From assembly GCA_021545665.1 (NCBI GenBank), contig JAJRTX010000292.1, forward strand, positions 1-5,540: a stretch of 5,540 nucleotides of DNA, given 5' to 3'. The notes beneath the pieces are model-generated. The model did no database searches. It was given only the letters and a program-made list of their open reading frames with translations, and had not been told where the DNA came from. The position numbers were made by a program, and so were the translations under genes. Below, piece by piece: positions 1,656-5,540 of the stretch. Positions within the stretch are counted from its first letter, which is position 1. Each line of letters begins with the position of its first letter. The DNA is from Zetaproteobacteria bacterium (lineage in GTDB: Bacteria > Pseudomonadota > Zetaproteobacteria > Mariprofundales > Mariprofundaceae).

Positions 1656-3308
1656 ATGGACTACAGCTATTTGAATGACACGCTGATCATCCTTGCATCA
1701 ACAGTGGCTGTAGTAGTTCTATTCCTGCGTATTGGTCTGCCACCGATTCTTGGTTATTTATCTGTCGGTATTCTTATCGGGCCTTATGGACTGGAGCTGG
1801 TTTTCGATGTCGAGCATATCCGGGTGCTGGCTGAATTTGGCGTGGTTTTCCTGCTGTTCACCATTGGACTTGAATTTTCAGTGCCATTGCTAATTCGCAT
1901 GCGCGGTTCAGTGCTGGGTCTGGGCAGCGGTCAGGTGCTGCTGACGGTGGCGCTTACCATGGCCATTGCCATGTATTTTGGTTTTTCTTTTGAAACTGCG
2001 CTGGTTCTTGGAGGTGTGATCGCTATGTCTTCAACCGCACTGGTGACCAAGCAGCTGTCCGATCAGGTGGAATTACACACCCGCCATGGCAGGAACACTA
2101 TCGGCATTCTGCTGCTTCAGGATCTGATGGTTGTACCTTTATTGATTCTCGTGGCCAGCCTGTCAGACCAGTCCGGATCGATATCGCTCACTACGGTGTT
2201 GCTTGCCTTTGGCGAAGGGCTGCTTGCTCTGGCATTAATTTTTGTCTTCGGCCACTGGGTTTTGAGGCCGCTGTTCCGTGAAGTGGCCGGTTTTCGCTCA
2301 GCAGAACTGTTTACCCTGACGGTGTTACTGGTGGTGCTGTGCTCGGCCTGGGCCACCCACCAGATCGGCCTGAGCTTTGCTCTTGGCGCATTTCTGGCGG
2401 GCGTCATGCTCAGCGAAACGGAATTCCGGCATCAGGTGGAATCAGAAATCAGGCCATTCCGCGATGTCCTGCTGGGACTATTCTTTATTACCATCGGCAT
2501 GATGCTGAATATAAGGCTGCTACCTGAAACCTGGCACTGGGTTCTGCTGCTGCTTGCCGTGCTGATACTGGCGAAAATGCTGCTGGTTATGGGCCTGTGC
2601 CGCCTGGCTGGCTGGAACAACGCCGTATCCATGCGCACCGGACTGATTCTTGCCCATGGCGGTGAGTTTGGCTTTGCTATTTTGATTCTGGCCCTTGATG
2701 GCAATTTATTTTCAGCTGATCTGGCTCAGATTGTGCTGGCTACATTGCTGTTCAGTATCGGTCTGGCACCCTTTATCTTACGCCATAACGCGAAAATAAC
2801 GGCATTTATAATGCCAACGGCCATGGCCATAAGCCGAAAAAAGATCAGAGATCAGCTTGTTAACAAGGCGTGCGAGCTTAATCATCATGTTATTATCTGC
2901 GGCTTTGGCCGGGTGGGACAGCATGCCATGCAACTGCTCAACGATGAAGGCATCCACAGCATTGCTATCGATCTGGATCAGGAGCGGATAAAACAAGCAA
3001 ACGATTCAAAAAAACCTGTTTATTATGGTGATGCGGCCAGTCTCGAATTACTCAATGCCTGCGGCCTGGCCCGGGCATCGGCAGTGCTGGTCAGTATGGT
3101 GGATTTCAATACCAGTATCAAAATATTACAGCGGGTGCGATCAGTAGATGCCGAACTGCCGGTGATTGTACGCGCCCGTAAAGAGATTCACCTCTTCCAG
3201 TTGTATCAGGCCGAAGCCTCTGATGTGGTGACCGATACCTTCGATACCAGTCAGATGTTAAGCAAAGAGATGCTCAGCAGGTACAATATTCACCGTCAGA
3301 ATCTGTAG
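1656..3308 (+). CDS. Kef-type monovalent cation:proton antiporter (CPA2) with C-terminal RCK/TrkA-N domain
   Basis: This is a predicted inner-membrane antiporter exchanging K+ or Na+ for H+, with a regulatory nucleotide-binding domain in the cytosol. Residues 1 to about 390 form a CPA2/Kef exchanger domain of about 12 hydrophobic segments. It includes GYLSVGILIGPYGL near the N-terminus, the Kef-type QD pair (155-156) in a central membrane segment, and a loop with SETEFRH (253-259) before LLGLFFITIGM. After a basic linker, residues 409 to about 525 form an RCK (TrkA-N) Rossmann domain with GFGRVG (416-421), the acidic residue D439 at the end of the second strand, and YGDA (457-460). At 550 residues it is shorter than KefB or KefC (about 600-620) and ends soon after the RCK domain. 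It therefore lacks the extended Kef C-terminus, and no KefF/KefG-like partner is adjacent. Ion preference and glutathione gating cannot be read from the sequence. It is divergent from feoB and converges on the yrbG-like gene. Confidence 0.93.
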   Translation: MDYSYLNDTLIILASTVAVVVLFLRIGLPPILGYLSVGILIGPYGLELVFDVEHIRVLAEFGVVFLLFTIGLEFSVPLLIRMRGSVLGLGSGQVLLTVALTMAIAMYFGFSFETALVLGGVIAMSSTALVTKQLSDQVELHTRHGRNTIGILLLQDLMVVPLLILVASLSDQSGSISLTTVLLAFGEGLLALALIFVFGHWVLRPLFREVAGFRSAELFTLTVLLVVLCSAWATHQIGLSFALGAFLAGVMLSETEFRHQVESEIRPFRDVLLGLFFITIGMMLNIRLLPETWHWVLLLLAVLILAKMLLVMGLCRLAGWNNAVSMRTGLILAHGGEFGFAILILALDGNLFSADLAQIVLATLLFSIGLAPFILRHNAKITAFIMPTAMAISRKKIRDQLVNKACELNHHVIICGFGRVGQHAMQLLNDEGIHSIAIDLDQERIKQANDSKKPVYYGDAASLELLNACGLARASAVLVSMVDFNTSIKILQRVRSVDAELPVIVRARKEIHLFQLYQAEASDVVTDTFDTSQMLSKEMLSRYNIHRQNL

Positions 3309-3317
3309 ACAATCAGT

Positions 3318-3342
3318 CTGTTTATGATTGCATGATAAACAG
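3318..3342. terminator. hairpin between convergent genes, possible weak bidirectional terminator
   Basis: CTGTTTAT (3318-3325) and ATAAACAG (3335-3342) are perfect inverted copies around a nine-base loop. The hairpin lies just past the antiporter stop (3306-3308) and overlaps the yrbG-like stop codon (3322-3324). A competing stem pairs CAATCA (3310-3315) with TGATTG (3325-3330). No T-run follows on either strand and the stem is AT-rich, so intrinsic termination would be weak. Confidence 0.35.
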
Positions 3343-4284
3343 TATATAGAGATAAGTGCAGAATCCACTTGCCAGCAACGTACCTTCCAGGCGGTTGATT
3401 TTGCCCTGCGAGCGAATGCCAAAGGCCATAACAAACATGGCAATGGTAAAGGCAAACATCACCGGCAGGTCACGTAGCAGAATGTCACTGTTGAAGGCAT
3501 GGGGATGAATCAGTGCAGGCATACTCAGTACGGCCAGCAGATTAAACATGTTCGAACCAATCACATTGCCGATGGCAAGCTCGGCCTCATTTTTCAGCAC
3601 ACTGACAATGGAAGCTACAAGTTCCGGCAGACTGGTGCCGATAGCAACAATCGTTAAGCCAATCACTAGGTCACTGATACCGAGAATCTGTGCGATCTCA
3701 ACCGCGCCCCAGACCACAATCCTGGAGCTGAATAACAATACGAGCAACCCGACTATAAACCATAACCCGGCCATTTTCATCGGCATATGCGCCGGAATAA
3801 CTTCTGCGAATTCTTCTTCTATGGGATCATGACGTTCACGTTTGCCCAGTCTGACCAGCCACCAGAGCAACACGATCAGCCCGGCCAGCAGGGTTATGCC
3901 ATCCCACAGGTTCAGATCACCATCAGCCATCAGTGCAAAAGCCAGAAACATGACCAGGAAGAGAACAGGCAGTTCGCGCCGTAACGTCAGTGATTTCACT
4001 GTTAACGGGGCAACCATAGCTGTAACACCAAGAACAAGGCCGATATTTGCGATATTCGAGCCCAGTGCATTACCAATACCCAGATCGCTGTTTCCCTCGA
4101 AGGCCGCCATGGCCGCAATCAGCATTTCCGGAAATGAAGTGCCCAGGCTGACAATGGTCAAGCCGATAATCATTGGCGAGATGCGGAAATTCCGTGCTAT
4201 GGCGGAGGCGCCATCAACAAAACGGTCAGCGCCCCAAACCAGTAGCAGAAAACCTCCAATGATGGCCAGACTAGCTTGTAACAT
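3322..4284 (-). CDS. calcium/sodium antiporter, YrbG-like (CaCA family)
   Basis: This 320-residue inner-membrane protein belongs to the Ca2+:cation antiporter superfamily and is close in length and layout to E. coli YrbG (325). The two inverted alpha repeats are clear. Alpha-1 has GLTIVSLGTSFPE (41-53) and GNALGSNIAN (71-80); alpha-2 has GLTIVAIGTSLPE (209-221) and GNVIGSNMFN (239-248). The glutamates E53 and E221 match the central ion-binding glutamates of the family, and the matching second-helix positions are N80 and N248. About ten hydrophobic segments are split by a charged cytosolic loop at about 145-170 containing EEEFAE. The start ATG 4284 follows purC by 17 bases with a modest AGGG seven bases upstream, so translation probably depends on the purC transcript. 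The transport role is known for the family, but YrbG itself is poorly defined, so the exact ions are inferred. Confidence 0.92.
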   Translation of the reverse strand: MLQASLAIIGGFLLLVWGADRFVDGASAIARNFRISPMIIGLTIVSLGTSFPEMLIAAMAAFEGNSDLGIGNALGSNIANIGLVLGVTAMVAPLTVKSLTLRRELPVLFLVMFLAFALMADGDLNLWDGITLLAGLIVLLWWLVRLGKRERHDPIEEEFAEVIPAHMPMKMAGLWFIVGLLVLLFSSRIVVWGAVEIAQILGISDLVIGLTIVAIGTSLPELVASIVSVLKNEAELAIGNVIGSNMFNLLAVLSMPALIHPHAFNSDILLRDLPVMFAFTIAMFVMAFGIRSQGKINRLEGTLLASGFCTYLYILFIMQS

Positions 4285-4301: not shown

Positions 4302-5192
4302 TCAACGTTCACTCACCAGGCGGGACTGTGCCTCGTGATATTTGGCCGATGTCACTGCCATGATTTCATCGGGAACCTGTGGTCCCGGCGCCTGTTTGTC
4401 CCAGTCCAGCGTTTCCAGCCAGTCACGAATATACTGCTTGTCAAAGCTGGGCGGACTAAGGCCGGGCTGATAAGCGTCTACTGGCCAGAAACGGGATGAA
4501 TCCGGCGTCAGTGATTCGTCGATCTGTACTAACGCCCCATTTTCATCCAGCCCAAACTCGAATTTAGTGTCGGCAATAATAATGCCCTTTTCCAGCGCAT
4601 AAGCAGTTGCTTCTTTATACAGGGCCAGACTCGCATCCCGCACCTGCCTAGCAAGATCAGATCCAATAATGTGACACATTTGTTCAAAGCTGATATTTTC
4701 ATCATGGTCGCCTACACTGGCTTTTGTTGATGGCGTAAAAATCGCTTCCGGCAGCTGATCGGCCAGGTTAAGCCCTGCTGGCAGCTTAATGCCACATACC
4801 GAACCCCGCTTGCCATACTCTTTCCAGCCCGATCCAATCAGATAACCACGCACAATGGCTTCAATCGGTAAAGGTTTCAGCCGTTTGACTACAATGGCCC
4901 GCGAGCGCACGCGATCACGTTCAGCCACATCCGGAATAGCCTCTTCCAGACTCATATCAGACAAATGGTTGGGCACGATATGGGCGAGCTTGTGAAACCA
5001 GAACTCCGATACCACTGTCAGCACTTCGCCCTTACCCGGCACAGGCGTAGGCAGAACCACATCAAAAGCGGACAGTCGATCCGTGGTCACGATCAGCAGA
5101 TGCTTATCATCCACCTCATACATATCGCGCACCTTGCCGCTGTGCAGTAATTTAAGGCTGTTAATTTCGGCATGAAACATGGCGTTTGGCAT
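4302..5192 (-). CDS. purC: phosphoribosylaminoimidazole-succinocarboxamide synthase (SAICAR synthetase)
   Basis: PurC catalyses the ATP-dependent joining of CAIR and aspartate to give SAICAR in de novo purine synthesis, in the cytosol. Numbered from the second ATG (296 residues), the sequence shows the nucleotide-binding HSGKVRDMYEV (17-27), TDRLSAFD (37-44), signature LPIEAIVRGYLIGSGW (108-123), FTPSTKA (152-158), IIADTKFEFGLDENG (205-219) and QIDESLTPDSSRFW (223-236). All expected motifs are intact. The length is that of the longer PurC form rather than the roughly 237-residue E. coli form. Two adjacent ATGs are possible: AGGAG (5198-5202) lies five bases from ATG 5192 but only two from ATG 5195, so 5192 is preferred. 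It is the first gene of a likely purC-yrbG-like operon and has its own -10 element about 30 bases upstream. Confidence 0.96.
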   Translation of the reverse strand: MPNAMFHAEINSLKLLHSGKVRDMYEVDDKHLLIVTTDRLSAFDVVLPTPVPGKGEVLTVVSEFWFHKLAHIVPNHLSDMSLEEAIPDVAERDRVRSRAIVVKRLKPLPIEAIVRGYLIGSGWKEYGKRGSVCGIKLPAGLNLADQLPEAIFTPSTKASVGDHDENISFEQMCHIIGSDLARQVRDASLALYKEATAYALEKGIIIADTKFEFGLDENGALVQIDESLTPDSSRFWPVDAYQPGLSPPSFDKQYIRDWLETLDWDKQAPGPQVPDEIMAVTSAKYHEAQSRLVSER

Positions 5193-5197
5193 CATTT

Positions 5198-5202
5198 CTC
5201 CT
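5198..5202 (-). promoter_or_regulatory. purC: ribosome binding site deciding the purC start
   Basis: AGGAG reads on the minus strand ahead of the tandem ATGATG. Its spacing is five bases to the second ATG (5192) and two to the first (5195), which favours the second. Confidence 0.7.
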
Positions 5203-5223
5203 GTATTCTGTTAACATGCACGG

Positions 5224-5229
5224 ATTATA
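5224..5229 (-). promoter_or_regulatory. purC: -10 element of a probable purC promoter
   Basis: A perfect TATAAT reads on the minus strand, within TGATAATATAAT, and lies 31 bases before ATG 5192. The expected -35 position 17 bases upstream (GGGCAT) is a poor match, so the promoter may need an activator or be weak. No PurR-like operator was recognised. Confidence 0.45.
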
Positions 5230-5232
5230 TTA

Positions 5233-5466
5233 TCAGGCGGCGAAAAATGCCCGATTAAAGACACTCATACAAGTTATGTGCGGCTTCAATCGCCGGATTT
5301 GCATGCAATAGACAAATTCTTCATCTCTGCTGTAGCGCGCAGGAGGAAGAGTTAACCAATGGTCAGGCTGACCGATCAGGAGCAACAAGAGATTATCTGT
5401 TTTATTATCTATCTTCAGGAGTAAAACCACCGGCTTTGAGCCGGTCAGCTTCAGCTTGATGTTCAT
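5233..5466 (-). CDS. doubtful 77-residue reading frame starting in the left arm of the palindrome
   Basis: The frame opens with ATGAAC five bases after a perfect AGGAGGAG (5472-5479, minus strand), a very good initiation site. It ends at 5233, just before the purC -10. The predicted peptide starts MNIKLKLTGSKPVVLLLKID and has a leucine-rich stretch near residues 26-31, but I recognise no domain, signal peptide or clear membrane helix. A terminator-like hairpin lies within codons 8-15, which argues against full expression. The initiation site may exist only because it mirrors the one at 5513-5528. It could be a leader peptide, a decayed gene fragment or chance. Confidence 0.2.
   Translation of the reverse strand: MNIKLKLTGSKPVVLLLKIDNKTDNLLLLLIGQPDHWLTLPPARYSRDEEFVYCMQIRRLKPHITCMSVFNRAFFAA
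5359..5424 (+). CDS. doubtful 21-residue small reading frame
   Basis: ATG 5359 follows AGGAGG (5341-5346) at a long 12-base spacing and encodes MVRLTDQEQQEIICFIIYLQ plus a final E, ending with TAA. The peptide is polar at the N-terminus with a short hydrophobic ICFIIYL patch. The hairpin at 5429-5445 starts five bases after the stop, an arrangement resembling a leader peptide. No family is recognised and chance is a serious alternative. Confidence 0.15.
   Translation: MVRLTDQEQQEIICFIIYLQE
5423..5445 (-). terminator. intrinsic-terminator-like hairpin, leftward
   Basis: On the minus strand ACCGGCT and AGCCGGT form a perfect 7-bp GC-rich stem around a CAA loop (5429-5445), followed by GG and then four Ts (5423-5426). 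The T-run is short, so efficiency is uncertain. It would stop transcripts coming from the right soon after they cross the palindrome, shielding purC from read-through. On the plus strand the same stem lacks a T-run. Confidence 0.5.
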
Positions 5467-5531
5467 AATCTCTCCTCCTGTTTTGGCTCGCCCATTGGGT
5501 GAAAGCCAAAACAGGAGGAGAGATTATGAAC
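5461..5531. repeat. perfect 28-bp inverted repeat with mirrored ribosome binding sites and starts
   Basis: Bases 5461-5488 are the exact reverse complement of 5504-5531, separated by 15 bases. The spacer nearly continues the stem: CGCCC can pair with GGGTG around ATT, with an AA bulge before the outer stem. The whole 71-base unit can thus fold as one hairpin of about 33 pairs. Each arm, read outward, contains AGGAGGAG, a five-base spacer and ATGAAC. Beyond the arms the flanks differ completely and no target-site duplication is evident. It may be a regulatory leader hairpin, a small palindromic repeat element, or the result of template switching. Confidence 0.9.
5513..5520 (+). promoter_or_regulatory. 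ribosome binding site inside the right arm of the palindrome
   Basis: AGGAGGAG lies five bases before ATG 5526, an ideal site for a gene reading right out of the window. A transcript starting left of about 5470 would pair this site with 5472-5479 and hide it. Confidence 0.5.
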
Positions 5532-5540
5532 TATAGTACA
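5526..5540 (+). CDS. possible start of a rightward gene, five codons visible
   Basis: ATGAACTATAGTACA gives MNYST and runs off the window. The strong Shine-Dalgarno at 5513-5520 is the only support. Nothing can be said about its product. Confidence 0.3.

Follow-up and report, generated by a model that had tools for sequence, protein, structure and literature searches.

The window analysed here, 5,540 nucleotides from a zetaproteobacterium of the Mariprofundaceae (assembly GCA_021545665.1, contig JAJRTX010000292.1), is a complete contig, the longest of PurC entry P0001. It carries feoB, truncated by the contig start, on the minus strand (1–1419; Pfam PF02421 and PF07670), a KefB-type cation:proton antiporter gene on the plus strand (1656–3308; PF00999 and PF02254) and, both on the minus strand, a sodium/calcium exchanger gene (3322–4284; PF01699, E 3.1e-70) and purC, encoding SAICAR synthase (4302–5195; PF01259, E 1.8e-73). 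Its PurC is closest to that of Zetaproteobacteria: among the best 120 of 7,999 relatives scored, the 12 entries with an organism name belong to Mariprofundus or other Zetaproteobacteria (74–78% identity), and the 11 clusters P0002–P0012 reach 88–93% identity. A first search of Gammaproteobacteria found no close PurC (best 70%), and re-centring on the best matches led to two genomes. The gene order feoB-kefB-cax-purC is kept in six of the 17 purC neighbourhoods that were fetched (L046, L047, L048, L050, L051 and L052), some of the others being short or ending at contig ends. Gene content beyond purC is variable among the 17, with a KefB-like gene on the strand opposite to purC in eight of them. 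No relative with the same spacer as the window was found among 78 Zetaproteobacteria genomes.

The spacer itself holds several elements. Positions 5337–5406 (plus strand), with a Shine-Dalgarno sequence (SD), an ATG at 5359 and about 16 codons, are 80% identical (E 1.4e-10) to a stretch of G477 (C288:7191-7261, fetched as L438:1501-1571) in which SD and ATG are aligned; since the similarity ends after about 16 codons, this segment is read as the relic of a gene start. The relic lies to the left of the palindrome described below, at a distance of 54 bp. It is reminiscent of the N terminus of a DNA methyltransferase, but as the relative's ORF has no Pfam match it is given no name here. In G477 the counterpart is situated near the genes for a KilA-N protein and a histidyl-tRNA synthetase. 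Judging from the relic, the spacer appears to have been rearranged already. Further to the right, the segment 5424–5445 (plus strand) resembles a second multi-copy repeat, with 91% matches in G540, G572, G605 and G485, and contains a short hairpin (5429–5445) that is the one terminator-like site found, on the minus strand, where 0.3 were expected. This second element has an ACCGGC/GCCGGT hairpin (copies L448–L457). All ten of the fetched ACCGGC copies lie less than 350 bp from a contig end, and such repeats therefore end contigs here.

The most striking feature is a palindrome which, the window being the whole contig, stops 9 bp before the contig end. Its left arm (5461–5488) and right arm (5504–5531) are 28 nt each and 100% complementary, with a 15-nt loop between them (5489–5503), exactly the inverted repeat that an earlier note on this DNA had described. 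Each arm comprises AGGAGG, 7 nt and ATG AAC, the left one as a mirror image on the minus strand, and that note was also right that the same SD and start lie on both strands and face outward. More specifically, the right arm holds the SD at 5513–5518 and ATG AAC at 5526–5531 of a right-hand ORF, with the start codon at 5526–5528 on the plus strand, while the left arm leads into a 77-codon ORF judged spurious (see below). In the predicted RNA fold the loop contains a hairpin of its own, CGCCC-ATT-GGGTG, and an AA that stays unpaired. The palindrome is far beyond chance, with only 3e-12 perfect inverted repeats (arms of at least 28, loop 0–40) expected in 5,540 bases of the same composition. As RNA, the region 5445–5540 is predicted to fold with −59.5 kcal/mol (z −11.8), and none of 200 shuffles was equally stable. 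Outside the arms the two sides are not reverse complements of each other (one of nine bases matches, the right side having only 9 bases). Rfam gave no match at or above the gathering cut-off at the palindrome; matches below it are mostly to miRNA-precursor models, which is read as a consequence of the long stem, and an Rfam identity was rejected because all scores fall below the cut-off.

The ORF begun by the left arm (5233–5466, minus strand) was examined as a possible gene. A protein search, in which candidates had to share exact words with the 77-residue query and to have 0.55–1.75 of its length, found only the query itself. The coding score of the whole ORF is 0.006, compared with 0.33–0.48 for the four real genes of the window, whose own codons served to train the score; codons 1–40 score 0.19, and a frame is open for as long in 1.5% of shuffles. 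Within the ORF lies the motif CGGGCATTTTTCGCCGC (5237–5257, minus strand), upstream of purC, of which 21 of 21 bases are identical in G382; a 13-base string, GGGCATTTTTCGC or AGGCATTTTTCGC, occurs in seven of the 17 fetched purC neighbourhoods, and the motif may be a promoter or regulator site. Given the missing homologue, the coding score and the overlap with a motif that recurs upstream of purC, the left ORF was rejected as a gene. The back-to-back translation starts of two genes, which the earlier note had proposed, were thus not borne out, and of the two divergent starts the right one is the only one that possibly still belongs to a gene.

The right-hand ORF begins MNYST and is cut by the contig end after five codons; the pattern of an SD followed by MNYxT, sought in order to identify this gene, occurs in none of the 78 genomes. 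Accessibility of the right start was assessed from in silico folds of RNAs with varied 5′ starts, all ending at 5540. For RNAs starting at 5340, 5420 or 5461, the right SD is predicted to be unpaired at 0.0 and the AUG at 0.001, and with a start at 5470 the SD is still fully paired. Beyond that point the unpaired value of the SD is 0.35 for a start at 5476, 0.96 at 5482, 0.72 at 5489, 0.95 at 5497 and 0.73 at 5504. The expectation that the stem would bury both ribosome binding site and start codon therefore agrees with the predicted folds, provided that one RNA holds both arms, and in silico this sequestration is seen only for RNAs that start left of the stem. That transcripts must carry both arms, as had been argued, does not follow: the SD is largely unpaired in the RNA from 5482, and the left arm might overlap with a promoter. 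A scan for sigma-70-like promoters in 5150–5540 found none, with 0.7 expected. As the SD is paired in RNAs that start upstream and mostly free in those that start further into the hairpin, only transcripts from upstream would have the right start silenced by it.

The centre of the palindrome (5482–5508, plus strand) closely matches a core of 27 nt that belongs to a dispersed intergenic repeat; the consensus of its position-specific scoring matrix (PSSM) is TTTAGCTCGCCCGCAGGGTGAGGGCCA. By BLAST, 24 of the 27 positions (89%) are identical to two tandem copies in G462. With a core PSSM built from 19 distinct cores, the window excluded, the centre scores 32.7 bits, the next best position in the window reaching 6.5. 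Among 8,965,966 positions in fetched loci, a score of at least 32.7 outside the loci flagged for the family occurs only in L475 and L484, both of which were fetched using the family pattern and neither of which passed the flank filter. The significance of this match is overstated, because it was a weak match of the window itself that led to the family: a comparison of 5196–5540 with the 78 Zetaproteobacteria genomes gave matches in 58 at E up to 1, one of them strong, and the link to the family began with a BLAST match of E 0.01 per genome in one of the 78. The full-length model of the family, R1, has no match at the palindrome (its best in the window, elsewhere, has 5.1 bits and E 0.55), and therefore only a core fragment is claimed. 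On this basis, the palindrome centre is probably a fragment of the repeat core.

The repeat family deserves a description of its own. The core pattern, with at most two mismatches, was found at 31 places in 13 of the 78 genomes (reversed control: 1). Seven of these places (L458, L460, L464, L468, L469, L482 and L483) were taken as chance and dropped; the family, defined as copies with the right flanks, neighbouring units and additionally L114, comprises 25 distinct copies from nine genomes. Their alignment (A2) has three hairpins with the loops AGGANA, TTTA and ATGGAT. At its 20 pairs, 89.5% of cells pair and 12 pairs change on both sides, while covariation is 0.343 vs 0.151 in shuffled alignments, although kinship of the copies flatters such numbers. 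At an E-value limit of 1e-3, R1 detects the repeat in 52 of the 78 Zetaproteobacteria genomes (60 candidates scored per genome); with the limit at 1e-5, it does so in 71 of 274 genomes of Gammaproteobacteria (17 candidates scored per genome). These E-values are rough. The repeat looks intergenic and occurs singly or in tandem, with units about 69–74 nt apart (e.g. L442:1465-1609, L466:1387-1612 and L481:1485-1710). No Rfam family matches the tandem array L442 even at an E-value limit of 5, and a literature search found no published description recognisable as this family, which is not proof of absence. Its AGGA/AUGGA loops are presumably like binding sites of CsrA/RsmA. As a widespread repeat of three hairpins that covaries and has loops containing GGA, the family may turn out to be more important than the palindrome itself.

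The best explanation of the palindrome, to which we would give about an even chance of being correct, is that a single recent mutational event duplicated a short stretch in inverted orientation where a right-hand gene begins. The core of the dispersed repeat would form a small hairpin, GCT-CGCCC-NNN-GGGTG-AA-AGC, at which the nascent strand would fold during replication; the folded strand would then copy about 25 nt of one flank, C-AAAACAGGAGGAGAGATTATGAAC, and rejoin the template. Such an event would leave perfect arms, an AA bulge at the core that was not copied, and unrelated outer flanks, and would thereby make the right start perfectly self-complementary. The isolated 22-nt core is predicted to form the proposed hairpin with its AA bulge, at −8.4 kcal/mol, for the sequence of the window as well as for that of L442. 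When the L442 core is folded with its native downstream flank (1505–1540), the outer GCT/AGC pairs yield to another hairpin, and they return in a fold of the full unit. The lack of relation between the outer flanks is as expected of a short copied patch. The right arm seems more likely to be the source and the left the copy, because the left start leads nowhere and because a KefB-like gene lies beyond purC, on the opposite strand, in eight of 17 relatives, even if the sequence itself would look the same either way. As far as the available parts of two publications go, a single template-switching event is able to produce a perfect stem (PMC8794818), and the process is documented in E. coli (PMC7202029). 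The event was not observed here, and no ancestral state without the copy was found among the relatives.

Several rival readings have to be weighed against this inverted duplication. Two real divergent genes with duplicated leaders, the arrangement of the earlier note, would account for an SD and ATG AAC on both strands, and the rarity of so long an open frame in shuffles, together with the score of its first 40 codons, points the same way; with the left ORF dismissed on the evidence given above, this reading is nonetheless extremely improbable. A selected translational off-switch, in which the left arm would sequester the right SD and AUG until an alternative transcription start, RNase III or a factor opened the stem, draws on the stability of that stem and on the predicted change in SD accessibility, from 0.0 for RNA starts at 5340–5470 to 0.96 at 5482. 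We consider it distinctly unlikely: the pairing is more perfect than a switch requires, the promoter scan was negative, and none of the 17 purC neighbourhoods has a perfect hairpin of at least 20 bp at the same place, a weak test in that the window's spacer is not common to them. Of the recent origin or strong selection that the earlier note had read from the perfect identity of the arms, recent origin thus fits and a selected switch finds no support. An accident of a repeat-rich, rearranged spacer seems more likely than an evolved switch; according to the accessible part of PMC6060812, the one paper that a literature search on inverted repeats with divergent SD and start brought up, inverted repeats in E. 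coli are deficient just before start codons, which agrees more with an accident than with a device in common use. A mobile element is improbable as well, whether the arms are taken as its ends or as a MITE-like unit, or the right ORF as an insertion-sequence gene at a repeat. It would suit a palindrome core that resembles a dispersed repeat, contigs that end at repeats, and the use of REP sequences as insertion targets (from the portion of PMC1525189 that was available), but copies are missing. In the genome contigs the 22-nt arm has one exact match, in Chromohalobacter, without a second arm within 300 nt; two patterns for arm and unit found nothing in viral contigs, and plasmids (15 records) and phages (22 records) gave only weak short matches, none covering 80% of the query. 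The 78 genomes contain the arm at 16 places in 15 genomes, each with three mismatches (reversed control: 1), and these were read as ordinary SD plus ATG sites. The arm was consequently rejected as a repeat or mobile unit, and no second copy of the 71-base unit was found in any of the collections searched (genome contigs, viral, plasmid and phage sequences and the 78 genomes), so that what survives of the mobile palindromic element once suggested is the likeness of its centre to the dispersed repeat core.

An artefact of library preparation or assembly, in which fold-back extension, or a wrong join where the metagenome contig ends, produced the second arm, is unlikely, though it has to be taken seriously. 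Only 9 bp separate the palindrome from the contig end and no second sequence supports it, hairpins so long are rare in the clade, and structured or palindromic sequences are known to give rise to library artefacts (PMC10908179, as far as its available text goes). After a simple fold-back, however, the sequence beyond the second arm should be the left flank in reverse complement; with only one of the nine available bases matching, this possibility was rejected, and the uncopied AA bulge likewise argues against it. The 80 ends of 40 whole MAG contigs from the class were all free of perfect hairpins of at least 14 bp within 270 bp; 102 of 240 viral loci are whole contigs, and the sole hairpin of at least 16 bp in a whole contig sits 3,864 bp from its end. 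Contig-end hairpins are uncommon in the sampled contigs, no literature on them was found, and contigs here break at repeats, as in ten of ten ACCGGC copies (within 350 bp of a contig end). As for rarity, 1.6 Mb from three Zetaproteobacteria genomes (20-kb slices) contain nine perfect hairpins with arms of at least 16, the longest 24; most of them were judged terminator-like, while L141 resembles a Fur box and L118 is of uncertain type. The 240 viral loci (2.16 Mb) contain six hairpins of at least 16 bp, the longest 26, and the one in L183 starts at base 1 of the locus, which is an inner slice of its contig. A first batch of relatives (336 kb, leaving out L032–L044, which are contained in later loci) has two hairpins of at least 20 bp: L030, a locus from the gammaproteobacterial draw, contains one of 29 bp and L056 one of 20 bp. 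The latter (L056:5911-5961) is perfect and lies directly before purC in another zetaproteobacterium, G394.

If the inverted duplication is real, it would be a clear case of a perfect hairpin around a ribosome binding site arising from a repeat core in one step, and would offer a testable route from repeats to regulation. A bolder generalisation, which we regard as a long shot, is that repeat cores act as priming hairpins: one fold-back copy would capture the ribosome binding site and start of a neighbouring gene into a perfect stem, silencing it from upstream promoters and leaving it active only from a start inside the hairpin, so that repeats would be a standing source of new translational switches.

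Hairpins in 5′ leaders that sequester the start codon act as translational switches, and the palindrome resembles them in holding SD and AUG in its stem; unlike them, it has a perfect stem of 28 bp, with no alternative fold or counterpart seen. A second comparison is with REP elements, which in the part of PMC12306157 available to us are 14–40 nt in E. coli. The core of the palindrome is likewise the short hairpin of a multi-copy family read as intergenic, with 27 nt in total and a folding inner part of 22 nt, but the window has only this core, whereas the unit of the family is a three-hairpin element. The closest parallel to the proposed origin lies in template-switch or quasipalindrome hairpins, as the accessible portions of PMC8794818 and PMC7202029 present them. 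The case described here departs from these precedents in that the copied patch holds a ribosome binding site and a start codon and the ancestral sequence is lacking; it shares with them a perfect inverted copy running to tens of bases, flanks that are unrelated further out and a small central hairpin, which may have served here as the primer.
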